Shown: positions 42,406-60,017 of the stretch, piece by piece | Position numbering within the stretch: position 1 is the stretch's first letter | Layout of the letters: every line of letters begins with the position of its first letter | Assembly: GCF_006716425.1 (NCBI RefSeq) | Contig: NZ_VFOZ01000001.1 | Coordinates: 7,645,237-7,709,236 of the forward strand | From: Actinoallomurus bryophytorum | Lineage (GTDB): Bacteria; Actinomycetota; Actinomycetes; Streptosporangiales; Streptosporangiaceae | Direction: 5' to 3' | Length of the DNA: 64,000 bases | The notes under the pieces: generated by a model | The model's database searches: none | What the model saw: the letters and a program-made list of their open reading frames with translations, nothing else | Told to the model about the DNA's origin: nothing | Program-made: the position numbers and the translations under genes

Positions 42406-44310
42406 GTGCCCGAAGGACCCCCCGGACCTCCCGGCGAGACGCCCAGGCATCAGCCCTCACTCCACGAGCACCTGAGCTGCGTCGCCGCGCCCGCGACGTG
42501 GCTGTCCCCGCCCGGCGCACAGCTCACCGGGGGCGCCGACGGCCTGTACGTCTCCGACCGCCGCGTGCTGTCGCGTCTCCTGGTGACCCTCGACGGCGCC
42601 GAACCCGAGCCGCGGGAGGCGGTCCTGCGCGGCGCGGACAGCGCACGGTTCACCGCCACTCGTGGCACCCTGACGGTCGAACGCCTGCGTACCGTGCGCC
42701 ACGACGGCGGGACCGAGCGGATCACCGTCCGCAACGACGGCGCGAGCCCCGTCACGGCGAGGCTCGCGATCACGGCGGCGGCCGACTTCGCCCCGATCAG
42801 CGCCGTGAAGGCGGGCGATCCGCCACCGCTGGAGACCGTACTGCGCGGCGGCGTGGTCGCCGGTCCCGGCGGCTATGAGGTGCGCCTGGACGGCCCCGTG
42901 GACGTGGAGCTCACCCTGGCGCCGGGCGAGCACGTCACCACGACCCTCGCCGTACGTGCCACGCCGCCACCCGGCCCCGGCTTCCGCCCAGCGCCGCCGG
43001 ACGGTCCGCCGCCCTGGGCACGGGCGCCCCTGACCGTACGCTCGGCCGACGACCGGATCGGCGCGCTGGTGACCCAGGGGATCGCCGACCTCGGCGCCCT
43101 GCTCCTCGCCGACGAGGGAGACCTCTACTGCGGGGCCGGCAGCCCCTGGTACCTCACGCTGTTCGGCCGCGACGCCCTGTGGACCGCGCGGCTCGCCCTT
43201 CCGCTCGGCCACGAGCTCGCGGCCGGCACCCTGCGTGCGCTGGCCCGTCACCAGGGCGCCGGCCACGACCCGGTCACCGAGGAGGAGCCCGGCAAGATCC
43301 CGCACGAGCTGCGGCCCGCCCACGCCCCCGGATCGCTGCCGCCGGTCTACTACGGGTCGGTCGACGCCACCGCGCTGTTCGTCATCACCCTGGCCGAGGC
43401 GTGGCGCTGGGGGATGCCCGCCACCGAGGTCCGTGCCCTCCTGCCCGCCGCCGAGAAGGCCCTGGGCTGGCTCCGGTCGTTCGGGGAGTTCGTGTCGTAC
43501 CGCGGCTCGGCCGACCGGCTGGCGAACCAGGGGTGGAAGGATTCGGTGGACGGCGTCCAGCACGAGGACGGCACGCTCGCCGCCTCGCCGATCGCGCTGG
43601 CGGAGGTGCAGGCGTACGCCTACCAGGCGGCCACGCTCGGCGCGGACCTGCTCGACGTGTACGGCACCGGCGGGGACGGCCACCGGCGGTGGGCGGAGGG
43701 GCTGGCGGCCCGCTTCCGTGAACGGTTCTGGCTGGACGACGGCTACCCGGCGATCGCGATCGACGGGATGGGCAGGCCCGTCGACGGCCTCGCCTCGAAC
43801 GCCGGGCACCTGCTGGGCACCGGCCTGCTCACTCCGGAGGAGGAGGACCGCGTCGCGGATCGGCTGATGGAGCTGCACTCCGGCTGGGGGCTGCGGACGC
43901 TGACCGACCGGGCCGCCGGGTATGACCCGGTCTCGTACCACCTCGGCTCGGTCTGGCCGCACGACACCGTGATCGCGATGCTCGGCCTGAGCCGTTCGGG
44001 CCACACCGAACACGCCGCGACACTCGCGCGCGGACTGATCGCCGCCGGGGCCGCGTTCGGATACCGGCTGCCCGAGCTGTTCGGCGGCCAGGACGCCGGG
44101 GGAGTGCCCGTGCCCTATCCGGCGGCCTGCCGTCCGCAGGCGTGGAGCGCGGCCGTGTCCCCGGCGCTGGTCACCGTCCTGCTCGGCCTCGACCCGGACG
44201 TGCCCGCCGGGCGTACGACGGTCGCGCCCCTGCCGGGCTTCGGCGAGATGCGGATCACCGGCGTACGCGTCGGCGAGGCGCCGTCGGCCTTCACGATCGA
44301 CCTTCCATGA
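42406..44310 (+). CDS. Glycogen-debranching-like glycosidase (GDE N-terminal domain)
   Basis: A 634-residue cytosolic enzyme. The N-terminal ~220 residues form the beta-rich domain typical of amylo-alpha-1,6-glucosidase-like proteins (GLYVSDRRVLSRLLVTLDG). The (alpha/alpha)6 region carries PWYLTLFGRDALWTARLALP, GKIPHELR, NQGWKDSVDG, DGMGRPVDGLASNAGHLL and YHLGSVWPHDT. These match the family annotated as amylo-alpha-1,6-glucosidase or glycogen debranching enzyme. The GTG start follows CGGAGGA. It probably completes alpha-glucan breakdown with the two GH13 enzymes. It ends the carbohydrate locus. Confidence 0.87.
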   Translation: MPEGPPGPPGETPRHQPSLHEHLSCVAAPATWLSPPGAQLTGGADGLYVSDRRVLSRLLVTLDGAEPEPREAVLRGADSARFTATRGTLTVERLRTVRHDGGTERITVRNDGASPVTARLAITAAADFAPISAVKAGDPPPLETVLRGGVVAGPGGYEVRLDGPVDVELTLAPGEHVTTTLAVRATPPPGPGFRPAPPDGPPPWARAPLTVRSADDRIGALVTQGIADLGALLLADEGDLYCGAGSPWYLTLFGRDALWTARLALPLGHELAAGTLRALARHQGAGHDPVTEEEPGKIPHELRPAHAPGSLPPVYYGSVDATALFVITLAEAWRWGMPATEVRALLPAAEKALGWLRSFGEFVSYRGSADRLANQGWKDSVDGVQHEDGTLAASPIALAEVQAYAYQAATLGADLLDVYGTGGDGHRRWAEGLAARFRERFWLDDGYPAIAIDGMGRPVDGLASNAGHLLGTGLLTPEEEDRVADRLMELHSGWGLRTLTDRAAGYDPVSYHLGSVWPHDTVIAMLGLSRSGHTEHAATLARGLIAAGAAFGYRLPELFGGQDAGGVPVPYPAACRPQAWSAAVSPALVTVLLGLDPDVPAGRTTVAPLPGFGEMRITGVRVGEAPSAFTIDLP

Positions 44311-54561: not shown

Positions 54562-54825
54562 TGACCTGCGCAGACGAGGGACTGGTGTGACGCGCTGGTT
54601 GCACATGTTCACGAGCGTGTAACACCTCATACGCGCTTGATGACGACGAGATCACAATCGAGACACGGGTACTAGCGCCGACCTGCTCCCGGGCGTGAGA
54701 GTCATCCGGGGGGAGGTAGGTTCCCTCTCCAATGGACGCATATGTCAGTCACATATGCCCGGTTTCACATGTGGAGCGACCGGGGTCCGTTGACGGCAAT
54801 GCCGCCGAGCGTGGGAGGTACCCCG
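54562..54825 (+). promoter_or_regulatory. Upstream region of the peptide-transport operon with palindrome
   Basis: No gene is seen in this 264-bp region. It contains a palindrome GCATATGT-5 nt-ACATATGC (54738-54758), a good candidate operator and strikingly AT-rich for this genome, followed by the related half-site CACATGTG. It precedes the triple mini-ORF leader and the ABC operon, so it is the likely promoter/operator of that operon. GGAGG (54814-54818) is the Shine-Dalgarno site of the first mini-ORF. Confidence 0.55.
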
Positions 54826-54897
54826 GTGACCGAGCGTAGCGAGGGAACCAGTCAACGCAGCACCTTGGTCGCGGCGCCGACGAAGGAGGTGTCGTGA
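54826..54897 (+). CDS. Leader mini-ORF 1 (23 aa)
   Basis: GTG-initiated 23-codon frame, starting MTERSEGTSQRS and ending APTKEVS, with its own GGAGG 7 nt upstream. Its TGA overlaps the GTG of mini-ORF 2 (GTGA). Whether it is translated is not known; the start signal is as good as that of the annotated genes here. Confidence 0.5.
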   Translation: MTERSEGTSQRSTLVAAPTKEVS

Positions 54898-54965
54898 CCG
54901 AGCGTAGCGAGGGAACCGATCAGCACAGCACCTTGGTCGCGGCGCCGACGAAGGAGGTGTCGTGA
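54894..54965 (+). CDS. Leader mini-ORF 2 (23 aa)
   Basis: Second copy, starting MTERSEGTDQHS and ending APTKEVS. AAGGAGG lies 4 nt upstream, and its stop overlaps the start of mini-ORF 3. The peptide is identical to that of mini-ORF 3. Confidence 0.5.
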   Translation: MTERSEGTDQHSTLVAAPTKEVS

Positions 54966-55033
54966 CCGAGCGTAGCGAGGGAACCGATCAGCACAGCACC
55001 TTGGTCGCGGCGCCGACGAAGGAGGTGTCGTGA
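54962..55033 (+). CDS. Leader mini-ORF 3 (23 aa)
   Basis: Third copy, identical to mini-ORF 2. Its TGA overlaps the GTG start of the permease at 55030, so translation of the leader would feed directly into the transporter gene. Confidence 0.5.
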   Translation: MTERSEGTDQHSTLVAAPTKEVS

Positions 55034-56031
55034 CCGCACCGATCGAGGTGTCCGGTTCCGATATCGAAGCACAGCCGGAGGCCGTGCTCGCGGGTATGGG
55101 CGGCAAGGTCGAGGGCCGCTCGCTCGGTCAGATCGCCTGGATGCGGCTCCGGCGCGACAAGGTGGCGATGTTCGGCGGCGTCGTGGTGCTCCTGTTGATC
55201 ATCATGGCGGTCTCCGCGCCGCTGCTCGTCAAGTGGTTCGGGTATCCGCCGAGCGAGTTCCACCAGAACTACATCGACCCGAGCCTCCAGCGCCCGCTCC
55301 ACGGACCCTGGCACTCGGGCATCAGCAGCAAGTTCCTGCTCGGCGTCGAGCCCACGACGGGCCGTGACATCTTCAGCCGGATCGTCACCGGGGCCTGGAT
55401 CTCCCTGTTGATCGCCTTCCTCGCGACCCTGCTCTCGGTGGTCATCGGTTCGACGCTGGGGATCATCGCCGGCTACTTCGGTGGCTGGGTGGACACGCTG
55501 ATCGCCCGTGCCATGGACGTCTTCCTGGCCTTCCCGATCCTGCTGTTCGCCATCGCGCTGGCGGGCGTCGTCCAGGGCAAGGTGTGGGGACTGTCCGGGA
55601 ACGGACTCCGCATCAGCCTGCTGATCTTCATCATCGGCTTCTTCAACTGGGCCTATATCGGCCGGATCATCCGGGGTCAGACGCTCTCTCTGCGCGAACG
55701 CGAGTTCGTCGACGCGGCGCGCTCGATGGGGGCGCGGGCGCCCTACATCCTCTTCCGCGAGCTGCTGCCGAACCTCCTCGCCCCGATCCTGGTCTACTCC
55801 ACGCTGCTCATCCCGACGAACATCCTGTTCGAGGCGGCGCTCTCCTATCTCGGGGTGGGAGTCAACGAGCCGACACCCACGTGGGGCGGCATGCTCGCCA
55901 CGGCGGTCCCGATCTACTCGATCGACCCCTGGTTCATGATCGTCCCGGGCCTCGCGATCTTCGTGACGGTTCTGGCCTTCAACCTCTTCGGCGACGGTCT
56001 ACGCGACGCCCTGGACCCTCGTAGTCGCTGA
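55030..56031 (+). CDS. Peptide ABC transporter permease, DppC/OppC type
   Basis: A 333-residue permease with a cytosolic N-terminus of about 40 residues, a first membrane helix (VAMFGGVVVLLLIIMAVSAPLL), an external loop, and five more helices. Family signatures are LLGVEPTTGRDIFSRIVTGAW and the EAA loop EFVDAARSMGARAPYILFRELLPN. It is the first gene of the operon C-A-B-D-F. GTG 55030 is preceded by AAGGAGG from the last 68-bp repeat and overlaps the stop of mini-ORF 3. Having the permease before the binding protein is less usual for this transporter class. Confidence 0.94.
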   Translation: MTAPIEVSGSDIEAQPEAVLAGMGGKVEGRSLGQIAWMRLRRDKVAMFGGVVVLLLIIMAVSAPLLVKWFGYPPSEFHQNYIDPSLQRPLHGPWHSGISSKFLLGVEPTTGRDIFSRIVTGAWISLLIAFLATLLSVVIGSTLGIIAGYFGGWVDTLIARAMDVFLAFPILLFAIALAGVVQGKVWGLSGNGLRISLLIFIIGFFNWAYIGRIIRGQTLSLREREFVDAARSMGARAPYILFRELLPNLLAPILVYSTLLIPTNILFEAALSYLGVGVNEPTPTWGGMLATAVPIYSIDPWFMIVPGLAIFVTVLAFNLFGDGLRDALDPRSR

Positions 56032-57936: not shown

Positions 57937-58950
57937 GTGGTCAACTTCCTAATCCGGCGCCTGCTCGCCGCCATCGTCCTGCTCATCATCGTGAGCATGG
58001 TGACGTTCGCGATCTTCTTCCTCATCCCGAGGCTGACCGGCGCGAGTAGCAGCGACCTGGCCTCCCGGTACGTGGGCAAGACCGCCGGGCCCCAGGCGGT
58101 CCACGAGGTGGAGATCCGGCTCGGCCTGAACCGGCCGCTGGTGGTGCAGTACTGGAACTTCGTCAAGGGCATCGTCGTCGGGGCGCACTACAACTTCGGC
58201 CCCTCGAAGGTGTACTGCGGGCCGCCGTGCTTCGGCTACTCCTTCGTCAACCAGACCCCGGTCTGGCCGGACCTGCTCGACCGGATGCCCGTCACGTTGT
58301 CGCTCGCCGGCGGCGCTGCGGTCATCTGGCTGGTGTTCGGCGTGACGACCGGCGTGGTCTCCGCGCTCAAGCGGGGAAGCGTGGTCGACCGGGTGTCGAT
58401 GGGCATCGCCCTGGCGGGCGTGTCCCTGCCGATCTTCTTCACCGGTCTGCTGTCGCTGGCGATCTTCCGGGACAACCTCAAGCTCTTCCCCGGCGCCGGG
58501 ACGTACGTCGGGCTCACCCAGAACCCGCTCACCTGGGCCTCCAACCTCGTCCTGCCATGGGTCACCCTGGCGTTCCTGCAGGCGGCGCTGTACGCGCGGC
58601 TGACACGTGCCGGGATGCTGGAGACGATGGGCGAGGACTACATCCGTACGGCACGGGCCAAAGGCCTGCCCGAACGCACCGTCATCGTCCGGCACGCGTT
58701 GCGCGCGACCCTCACCCCGGTGCTGACCATCTTCGGCATCGACCTGGGTACGCTCGTCGGCGGCGCGGTGCTGACCGAGGGAACGTTCTCTCTGCCCGGG
58801 CTCGGCAAGTTCGCCATCGACTCGATCAACAACAACGACCTGCCACGGGTGCTGGGCGTGGTCATGGTCGGAGCGTTCTTCATCGTGCTGGCCAACCTCG
58901 TCGTGGACGTCCTGTACGCGGTGATCGACCCGAGGGTGAGGCTCTCATGA
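57937..58950 (+). CDS. Peptide ABC transporter permease, DppB/OppB type
   Basis: A 337-residue permease starting VVNFLIRRLLAAIVLLIIVS (first membrane helix), with an external loop containing a Cys pair (YCGPPCFGYSF), five further helices and the EAA loop EDYIRTARAKGLPERTVIVRHALR. The C-terminus [13 protein letters not shown] is family-typical. Its stop overlaps the ATG of the ATPase gene (ATGA). No strong Shine-Dalgarno site precedes the GTG at 57937, so translation may rely on the structure upstream. Confidence 0.93.
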   Translation: MVNFLIRRLLAAIVLLIIVSMVTFAIFFLIPRLTGASSSDLASRYVGKTAGPQAVHEVEIRLGLNRPLVVQYWNFVKGIVVGAHYNFGPSKVYCGPPCFGYSFVNQTPVWPDLLDRMPVTLSLAGGAAVIWLVFGVTTGVVSALKRGSVVDRVSMGIALAGVSLPIFFTGLLSLAIFRDNLKLFPGAGTYVGLTQNPLTWASNLVLPWVTLAFLQAALYARLTRAGMLETMGEDYIRTARAKGLPERTVIVRHALRATLTPVLTIFGIDLGTLVGGAVLTEGTFSLPGLGKFAIDSINNNDLPRVLGVVMVGAFFIVLANLVVDVLYAVIDPRVRLS

Positions 58951-60017
58951 GCGAGCGGAGCGAGCAGGCGGGCCAGGAGACGGTCGCCGCCCAGGCGCCG
59001 AAGGCGTTCCTGGAGGTCCGCGACCTGAAGATCCACTTCCCGACCGACGACGGTCTGGTGAAGTCCGTCGACGGGCTGTCCTTCGGCCTCGAACGCGGTC
59101 GTACGCTGGGCATCGTGGGGGAGTCCGGCTCGGGCAAGAGCGTGACGAGCCTGGGCCTGCTGGGTCTGCACAACCGCAAGAACGCGCAGGTCTCCGGCGA
59201 GATCTGGCTCGACGGCCAGGAGATCGTCGGCTCGTCACCGGAGCAGGTGCGGCGGATGCGCGGCCGGAAGATGTCGATGATCTTCCAGGACCCGCTGTCG
59301 TCGATGCATCCCTTCTACTCGATCGGCGCCCAGATCATCGAGGCGTACCGCATCCACAACGACGTCTCCAAGCAGGTCGCGCGCAAGCACGCCATCGACA
59401 TGCTGGAGCGGGTCGGGATCCCGCAGCCGGACAAGCGCGTGGACGACTACCCGCACCAGTTCTCCGGCGGCATGCGGCAGCGCGCGATGATCGCGATGTC
59501 GCTGTCCTGCGACCCGGAACTCCTGATCGCCGACGAGCCCACGACGGCCCTCGACGTGACGGTCCAGGCGCAGATCCTGGACCTGATCCGTGACCTGCAG
59601 GAGGAGTTCAACTCCGCGGTCATCATCATCACCCACGACCTCGGCGTGGTCGCGGAGCTGTCCGATGACATCCTCGTGATGTACGGCGGCCGCTGCGTGG
59701 AGTACGGCGCCGTCGAGGACATCTTCCACGCGCCCGAGCACCCCTACACCTGGGGCCTGCTCGGCTCGATGCCCAGGCTGGACCGCGAGCGCTCCGACCG
59801 GCTCCTTCCGATCAAGGGCAGCCCGCCGAGCCTCATCAACGTGCCGCAGGGCTGCGCCTTCAACCCGCGCTGCACGTTCGCGGAGCTGAACGAGGGACGC
59901 AGCGAGACCGAGCGGCCGGAGCTGCGGGAGATCGCCCCCGGCCACCGGGTCGCGTGCCACCTGGACCGCGCGGACCGGCAACGCCTCTGGGAAGACGAGG
60001 TCAAGCCGAAGCTGTGA
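58947..60017 (+). CDS. Peptide ABC transporter ATPase, DppD/OppD type
   Basis: A 356-residue ATPase with Walker [10 protein letters not shown]-loop [12 protein letters not shown], signature [14 protein letters not shown], Walker [13 protein letters not shown] and H-loop [10 protein letters not shown]. The oligopeptide/dipeptide C-terminal extension includes [11 protein letters not shown], whose Cys may contribute to the family's iron-sulfur or zinc site. The N-terminus MSERSEQ is encoded by an AGCG-rich string that resembles the start of the 68-bp repeats. It overlaps the permease stop by 4 nt and the next gene's first GTG. Confidence 0.95.

Follow-up and report, generated by a model that had tools for sequence, protein, structure and literature searches.

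A dispersed 68-bp cassette at start codons of Actinoallomurus and other actinobacteria, a putative translational relay

RESULTS

Three chained mini-ORFs in front of an OppC-type permease gene

The window analyzed here, a 64,000-nucleotide stretch of the Actinoallomurus bryophytorum genome (contig NZ_VFOZ01000001.1, positions 7,645,237 to 7,709,236), carries three tandem 68-bp units at positions 54826-55029 (54826-54893, 54894-54961, and 54962-55029). They end at the gene for an OppC-type permease (55030-56031, Pfam), which, judging from the list of open reading frames (ORFs), seems to lead a peptide ABC operon. TRF run on the window ranked this array at the top of its 4 rows (period 68, 3.1 copies, 97% matches, score 394). 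All 68 bp of units 2 and 3 are the same, and unit 1 differs from both at 4 of 68 bases. Each unit encodes a mini-ORF of 23 codons plus TGA, with the peptide VTERSEGTSQRSTLVAAPTKEVS in unit 1 and VTERSEGTDQHSTLVAAPTKEVS in units 2 and 3. The stops and the following starts overlap as GTGA at 54894-54897, 54962-54965, and 55030-55033, and the last GTG of the array (55030) is the permease start. The features are as follows.

54813..54818, + strand: GGGAGG, by position the native Shine-Dalgarno (SD) site of the permease, now before mini-ORF 1 (from the sequence; the same flank abuts the permease start in the empty orthologues of congeners G004 and G006)
54826..54897, + strand: unit 1 mini-ORF, 23 codons plus TGA
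54867..54899, + strand: unit 1 predicted hairpin (arm 54867-54878, loop 54879-54887, arm 54888-54899 with the unit 2 GTG)
54883..54889, + strand: unit 1 SD site AAGGAGG
54894..54965, + strand: unit 2 mini-ORF
54935..54967, + strand: unit 2 predicted hairpin, containing the unit 3 GTG
54951..54957, + strand: unit 2 SD site AAGGAGG
54962..55033, + strand: unit 3 mini-ORF, same as unit 2 over 68 bp
55003..55035, + strand: unit 3 predicted hairpin, 12 of 12 pairs, whose right arm covers the start codon and codon 2 of the permease
55019..55025, + strand: unit 3 SD site AAGGAGG, positioned for the permease
55030..56031, + strand: OppC-type peptide ABC permease, downstream of the array
58947..58964, + strand: half cassette ATGAGCGAGCGGAGCGAG, forming the N terminus MSERSE of the ABC ATPase gene after the second permease, with an ATGA overlap with that permease's stop

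An earlier note on this DNA had described three 68-bp repeats with GTG starts, AAGGAGG sites, and GTGA overlaps, all of which proved exact on rereading of the sequence. The anatomy also bears out its view of each unit as a self-contained reinitiation cassette in which the 68-bp period keeps the stop-start register: since the unit length is 3 × 23 − 1, the overlap is retained from one unit to the next. Two further properties that the note had not described are a 12-bp predicted hairpin in every unit and the dispersal of the unit through the genome.

A dispersed family in the window genome

One unit used as a BLAST query had 53 matches at E ≤ 10 in the window genome (G000; 9.47 Mb, 3 contigs). 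A model based on sequence alone (R1), built from an alignment of 36 copies (A1), gave 114 matches at E ≤ 1 and 87 at E ≤ 0.01; the 27 matches between these thresholds were left out before sites were counted. The 87 matches fall at 67 places, of which 13 hold two or more. A test based on an open frame and third-position GC, passed by 25% of random positions, puts a coding start codon after 62 of the 67 places. Because of that background, a stricter test was applied: a start codon stood at the fixed offset at 56 of 67 places, compared with 1.9% of 4,000 random window positions, and a start codon together with an SD site stood there at 55 of 67 places, compared with 0.13%. The earlier note had named as a refuting case a repeat spread over the genome without regard to gene starts; the repeat is indeed spread over the genome, but a coding start follows at 62 of its 67 places. 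Among the five places that lack one, the match at window positions 43076-43125 has only a weak score (E = 0.007) and could be due to chance. The bare motif GAGCGNAGCGAG was a poor marker of the family, matching 53 times versus 43 for the reversed control; 44 of the 53 matches lay inside the census sites and 9 outside.

Ten of the downstream genes were printed, and all eight that were tested against Pfam had a match. Reading gene names from the families, these are ribH, ilvN, a glmU-like nucleotidyl transferase, nuoJ, hemB, hemA, truA, and a GntR regulator.

By eye, two of the five places that failed the coding-start test (C1:5837118 and C2:59502) appear to be half cassettes that form the N termini of genes. 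Half cassettes of this kind, in which the 3′ half is absent and the gene starts with MSERSE or an MTERSE-like sequence, were seen at window positions 58947-58964, at the two places just named, and at C1:7830439; among the genes concerned are the window operon's ABC ATPase and, as judged by eye alone, one response-regulator-like and one NRPS-like gene. At C1:566167-566448, a four-unit array of period 69 reads as an in-frame 23-residue protein repeat (beginning VTERSEGTDKHSTLVTGSDEGGA) that is joined to the next gene.

Occupied and empty start codons in congeners

The permease gene of the window locus is present in all seven congeners (G001 to G007). It is cassette-free in G001, G002, G004, G005, G006, and G007 and has one unit in G003, compared with three in the window genome; this agrees with the recent expansion that the earlier note had deduced from the identity of units 2 and 3. 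Occupied and empty orthologues share the flank gtgggaggta..., and the cassette lies between the native SD site and the permease GTG, so that the native SD now precedes mini-ORF 1 and the SD of the cassette fronts the permease.

When 27 sites from the window genome were queried jointly, orthologues in four congeners gave 89 matches. Loci were available for 30 of these matches, at 17 of the 27 sites, and were scored for occupancy by eye. At 12 of the 17, one or more congeners lacked the cassette, and the break fell at the start codon (79023, 337403, 851661, 1177894, 2474491, 3579337, 4584770, 5662810, 6408292, the window's own site, C2:7119, and C2:395587). The clearest case is 6408292, where G004 and G006 have aaaagggaagtcATGAG and the window genome has the same flank followed by the cassette and ATGAGC; another clear case is 1177894, which reads atcacGTGAC in G003. 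At other sites a congener carries a full, short, or decayed copy (for example, 7398703 in G004 and 4200036 in G003 and G006), and at 337403 the cassette in G003 has decayed to a remnant. Site 2501867, also among the 17, was scored as neither empty nor occupied.

The start of the cassette resembles the start of the gene behind it. Over 43 single-unit sites (E < 1e-4), the two agreed at base 1 in 31 cases (shuffle mean 22.1; P = 0.0014) and at base 5 in 32 cases (shuffle mean 19.4; 0 of 10,000 shuffles as high), with no excess at base 6 (24 of 43; shuffle mean 26.3). The stop of the upstream gene also overlaps the cassette start at 32 of 58 sites. A start codon region stands on both sides of the cassette, as in the target-site duplication that is expected of a miniature inverted-repeat transposable element (MITE); the alternative is that the two starts came to match later, by selection.

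Two loci extend these comparisons beyond the genus. The ilvN start (C1:851661-851734) is occupied in the window genome and empty in G001, and a diverged cassette stands there in another genus (genomes G094 and G277, loci L384 and L391; ilvN identified by eye), perhaps through repeated insertion at one start. The gene at C2:395587-395705 and its counterpart in Actinopolymorpha alba (L281) share 85.5% DNA identity over 593 bases across orders, and both have a cassette at the start; gene and cassette may have been transferred together.

The reading frame is constrained, the peptide little

An nhmmer search returned 412 matches, of which 265 were distinct and 238 had the loop anchor. Frame was assessed in 208 distinct units (E ≤ 1e-4, both starts found) from the loci gathered to that point. 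Between the start of the cassette and the one that follows, the distance modulo 3 was 2 (coupled) in 153 units, 0 (fused) in 48, and 1 in only 7, counts that, like those for the hairpin below, are not independent, because units share descent and tandem copies inflate them too. Without the commonest length, 68, the numbers were 39, 48, and 7. One frame is thus nearly absent even though unit lengths range from 47 to 73. Exact overlap of the stop with the next start is present in 147 of 208 units, including all three in the window; 48 of the 61 units lacking the exact overlap are in the fusion frame.

Between 111 distinct 68-mers, pN/pS was 0.57 for codons 2 to 13 and 1.2 for the hairpin half. 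The near-fixed residues are E-R-S-E (codons 3 to 6) and P-T-K-E (codons 18 to 21, whose codons spell the SD site), and the middle varies. The frame is constrained, and the peptide is little conserved beyond its MTERSE or MSERSE start and the SD-spelling codons; in the same 68-mers we found no conserved peptide or regulatory codons of the leader-peptide kind.

A predicted hairpin that encloses the next start

The 3′ end of each window unit can fold as GGTCGCGGCGCC-GACGAAGGA-GGTGTCGTGACC, with 12 of 12 positions paired, three as G-U. The right arm takes in the last two SD bases, the start codon, and codon 2. Predicted energies of the three window hairpins are −23.9, −23.9, and −23.3 kcal/mol (z scores of −4.7, −4.7, and −4.3), and 0 of 200 shuffles were as stable. 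The single unit at the permease of G003 also forms 12 of 12 pairs, with different bases. No match was found among 4,227 Rfam covariance-model families at E ≤ 1 over window positions 54600-55300.

One conserved structure for all copies of the window genome was rejected, as RNAalifold on A1 gave only 2 pairs; for this reason the hairpin was tested on 33-nt blocks and on arms from outside Actinoallomurus. Pairs per block were bimodally distributed over the 238 blocks (33 with 12 pairs and 29 with 11), with a mean of 8.09 versus 7.34 after shuffling (largest, 7.53). The second alignment (A2) excludes Actinoallomurus and comprises 43 distinct arms, taken from Actinopolymorpha and named Streptosporangiales genera. 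The arms were not picked for pairing, apart from the loop and two inner pairs, which are fixed by selection because the scan pattern demands CCGACGAAGGAGG. In A2, 89.3% of cells were paired, compared with 72.4% after shuffling and 29 to 46% when the arms were slid; cells with both sides changed numbered 90 versus 38 after shuffling. Compensatory change occurred in 9 of 12 pairs, and covariation was 0.472 versus 0.178. The left arm mostly tracks codon 2 of the gene (GGT/ACC, GCT/AGC, GTT/AAC, and TTT/AAA), with the middle base paired in 36 of 43 arms.

Across the 208 units, the left arm scored 1.769 against the gene start, above all 1,000 shuffles (mean, 1.485; largest, 1.625). The cassette's own start was rejected as a pairing partner for this arm, since the score of 1.649 lay inside the shuffles, though near the top (mean, 1.532; largest, 1.659). 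At least 10 of 12 pairs formed in 75 of the 208 units, compared with 30 when left arms were shuffled. This level was reached by 31 of 33 units in Nonomuraea (median z, −5.4) and by 6 of 55 in the window genome (median z, −0.94). Many Actinoallomurus copies have instead a CCTCC-GACGAA-GGAGG stem that would close the SD site itself. This anti-SD stem was not retained as a second class: it occurred in 78 of 208 units versus 81 after shuffling, an absence of shuffle support that reflects the constancy of the SD site. Neither the hairpin nor the CCTCC/GGAGG stem was found in 55 of 208 units. Support for the predicted hairpin is strong in the wider family and in the window copies and weaker in most other copies of the window genome.

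Distribution in other genomes

The earlier note had proposed searching related genomes for the unit and counting copies at each site. R1 matches occurred in all seven congeners (11 to 97 each at E ≤ 0.01, with 81 in G001 and 49 in G004). Genes of the window genome match Actinoallomurus loci at up to 92% DNA identity, which makes an origin of the window in this genus probable. A structure model built from 19 units (R2) was used more widely. In the GTDB family, about 40 candidates were scored per genome, so that the counts are lower bounds: at E ≤ 0.001 the model matched in at least 49 of 120 genomes, representing at least 27 of 68 genera. Across the class, it matched in 16 of 197 genomes at E ≤ 1e-4, and 8 of these belong to four other families. 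Among the stretches listed (at least 120), 68 were from Actinoallomurus, 23 from Nonomuraea, 5 each from Actinomadura and Flexivirga, 3 from Streptosporangium, and the rest from other genera. Flexivirga and Leekyejoonella (Dermacoccaceae) have 68-bp tandems. The RTGA overlap was kept in 13 of 15 copies read from the family and class searches, some with other loops and with lengths up to 80; of the two exceptions, L399 is fused and L394 is different. Among 23 loci read from the at least 120 stretches, we found no cassette in two Bacillota contigs, one Desulfobacteraceae contig, one Bacteroidota contig, Metallococcus (L303), or one MAG (L256).

Longer tandem arrays were also listed, one with at least four units of period 68 (G087:C7:259608-259885) and one with three units (G123:C2:2039049-2039258). 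In three diverged relatives from outside the genus (L389, L393, and L396), a GAGCG..GCGAG motif is repeated inside the hairpin loop, and in L390 and L396 another cassette-like start follows.

DISCUSSION

A probable start-codon relay and its possible mover

Computation places this family at start codons, in a biased frame, and at sites with empty orthologues. We think it likely that it is a dispersed, transposing start-codon relay cassette of about 68 bp, a natural bicistronic design in which the start of a gene would stay closed until the mini-ORF is translated. The cassette would insert at a start codon, mostly one in RTGA, leaving a start on either side. The old SD site, or the stop of the upstream gene in the same RTGA, would then feed the mini-ORF, and the cassette would supply a new SD for the gene. 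Its inner arm and the SD-start region of the gene would form the hairpin and keep the gene closed as long as the mini-ORF is not translated. A ribosome on the mini-ORF would melt the hairpin, terminate at the TGA in the right arm, and reinitiate on the overlapping start. Translation of the mini-ORF, closing and opening of the hairpin in the cell, and any effect on expression are read here from sequence and predicted structure. In the window, three relays in series would precede the OppC permease, probably gating or lowering its translation. The earlier note had suggested a copy-number-tunable amplifier; each next start in the window lies inside a strong predicted hairpin, so a relay chain should gate or lower output, and amplification seems the less likely sign. 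The proposed mechanism joins the RNA-unfolding and reinitiation models of translational coupling, as these are outlined in the parts of a review that we consulted (PMC12548453).

What moves such an element is a separate matter. A RAYT/IS200-type mover was rejected: the Y1 transposase family PF01797 had 0 matches in six of the eight genus genomes (G000, G001, G002, G004, G005, and G006), which include the window genome and the cassette-rich G001 and G004 (81 and 49 R1 matches), and it had one weak match in G003 and three in G007. Inverted repeats of 12 nt or more are absent from the ends of the window units; the hairpin lies inside the unit and extends into the gene. Target choice or later selection could each account for the match of the inner arm to the start. 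We speculate, as less likely than not, that the cassette is a very small mobile element that reads starts: its inner arm would pair with the RTGA region and thereby select the target or be selected to fit it, the element would insert and duplicate the start, and the host gene would come to depend on the relay, tandem expansion then acting as a heritable translation dial. Spread might even proceed via mRNA- or translation-linked intermediates, which would give start-codon specificity without a DNA-sequence-specific integrase.

Other readings of the cassette

The strongest alternative is a selfish parasite of start codons, a tiny mobile repeat that survives at starts alone, where restoring SD and start limits the damage, and whose hairpin and frame would just keep the host gene functional, with no regulatory gain. 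The occupancy differences at 12 of 17 sites, the unrelated and mostly housekeeping nature of the eight tested genes, and the decayed remnant in G003 at 337403 are all as it would predict. A harmless passenger, however, would have no need of a start-closing hairpin, yet covariation is seen at 9 of 12 pairs, and in Nonomuraea at least 10 of 12 pairs form in 31 of 33 units. We regard this reading as a serious possibility, somewhat short of an even chance; it is compatible with the relay explanation, as its origin, and the likelihoods that we attach to the two therefore overlap.

The near-fixed nucleotides of the 5′ motif GAGCGNAGCGAG would suit an element that acts at the level of DNA or RNA, such as a protein-binding repeat or a recombination or transcription site, with the ORF as a by-product. 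Such an element should be indifferent to frame, and the scarcity of the third frame (7 of 208) despite unit lengths of 47 to 73, together with an RTGA overlap kept in 13 of 15 copies from the wider searches at lengths up to 80, makes this improbable.

Leader-peptide attenuation, in which an amino acid, peptide, or drug signal would stall ribosomes on particular mini-ORF codons and thereby open the next start, appears a shade more improbable still. Ribosome stalling on leader codons opens the next start in erm-type leaders, and the short ORF, the closed SD, and the conserved MTERSE or MSERSE start look alike here. The earlier note had raised a related idea, sensing of charged tRNA or peptide supply. 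Both are at odds with the pN/pS values of 0.57 and 1.2, with the variable middle codons, and with targets as unrelated as ribH, nuoJ, and truA, and an attenuator would have an internal stall site in place of the stop-start overlap.

Local tandem duplication of the 5′ end of the permease gene, with no wider meaning, would explain the identity of units 2 and 3 but is already refuted by the family at 66 other places in the window genome and in at least 49 of 120 family genomes and by empty orthologues that have no such 5′ end.

Implications of a possible self-spreading relay

If the relay reading is true, actinobacteria possess a natural, self-spreading counterpart of the engineers' bicistronic cassette, which would rewire translation gene by gene and leave promoters untouched. 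The permease locus would offer a natural copy-number series (0, 1, and 3) at one gene for tests of coupling. The family may also account for some genes in these genomes that start with MSERSE or MTERSE, and start-codon annotation may be wrong where a cassette is fused. The question raised is how a 68-bp element finds start codons.

Comparison with known systems

REP/BIME sequences with RAYT, MITEs, and Rickettsia palindromic elements are short dispersed repeats that are palindromic or translated; to our knowledge, none is start-codon specific or carries an SD and start. The cassette further differs from REP/BIME with RAYT in that no Y1 transposase of the TnpA-REP type was found in the window genome and from MITEs in that terminal inverted repeats of 12 nt or more are absent at the window unit ends, although an apparent target duplication is shared with the latter.

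Synthetic bicistronic design (BCD) reportedly goes back to Mutalik et al. in 2013. In the portion of the literature on it that we consulted, an engineered fore-cistron ends in a second SD (SD2), its stop overlaps the target start as TAATG, and the ribosome opens structure at that start (PMC10367133). The cassette likewise has a short fore-cistron with an SD, a stop overlapping the target start, and a structure that a ribosome would open; unlike BCD as described there, it occurs in nature, is dispersed, and appears to spread by itself, and one arm of its hairpin fits the start of the particular gene.

Coupling between neighboring genes is explained by two models, RNA unfolding and reinitiation, in the consulted parts of the review cited above, where an inhibitory structure is required in the RNA-unfolding model and not in the scanning model (PMC12548453). 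A stop that overlaps or abuts the downstream start, as coupling entails, occurs in the 147 units with exact overlap; inhibitory structure at the downstream SD or start is present by prediction and is weak in most other copies of the window genome. A natural AUGA upstream ORF on which its gene depends is described, in the sections seen, for uPPE2-PPE2 of Mycobacterium tuberculosis (PMC11260477). Both cases resemble the cassette in their RTGA overlap, termination-reinitiation, and dependence of the downstream gene on upstream translation; both concern gene pairs or a single upstream ORF, and the parts consulted name no repeat family, insertion, or tandem array (in the review, the words "repeat" and "transpos" are absent).

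Start-associated repeats are known as well. According to the excerpts consulted, the SAS/ESAS sequences of Cluster K mycobacteriophages are 13-bp copies of GGGATAGGAGCCC at translation starts, about half of them with inverted repeats (PMC3203893). The position at starts and the inverted repeats are shared with the cassette; SAS/ESAS sequences differ in being 13 bp long and phage borne, the excerpts name no mini-ORF or stop-start overlap, ESAS is well conserved at the same genes, and on reading, the unit does not contain the SAS motif. The TAACTGA repeats of Beggiatoaceae are reported to form many small arrays just upstream of start codons, with no pattern of gene function (PMC4679880). The cassette shares these traits, and the TAACTGA repeats differ in being heptamer direct repeats in genomes where canonical ribosome sites are rare.

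A search of the open-access literature found neither the exact string GAGCGAAGCGAGC nor a description of a dispersed start-codon element with an ORF, an SD, and a start-closing hairpin. Coupling, upstream ORFs, and start-associated repeats are each known parts; what appears provisionally to be new is their combination in one dispersed element at start codons.
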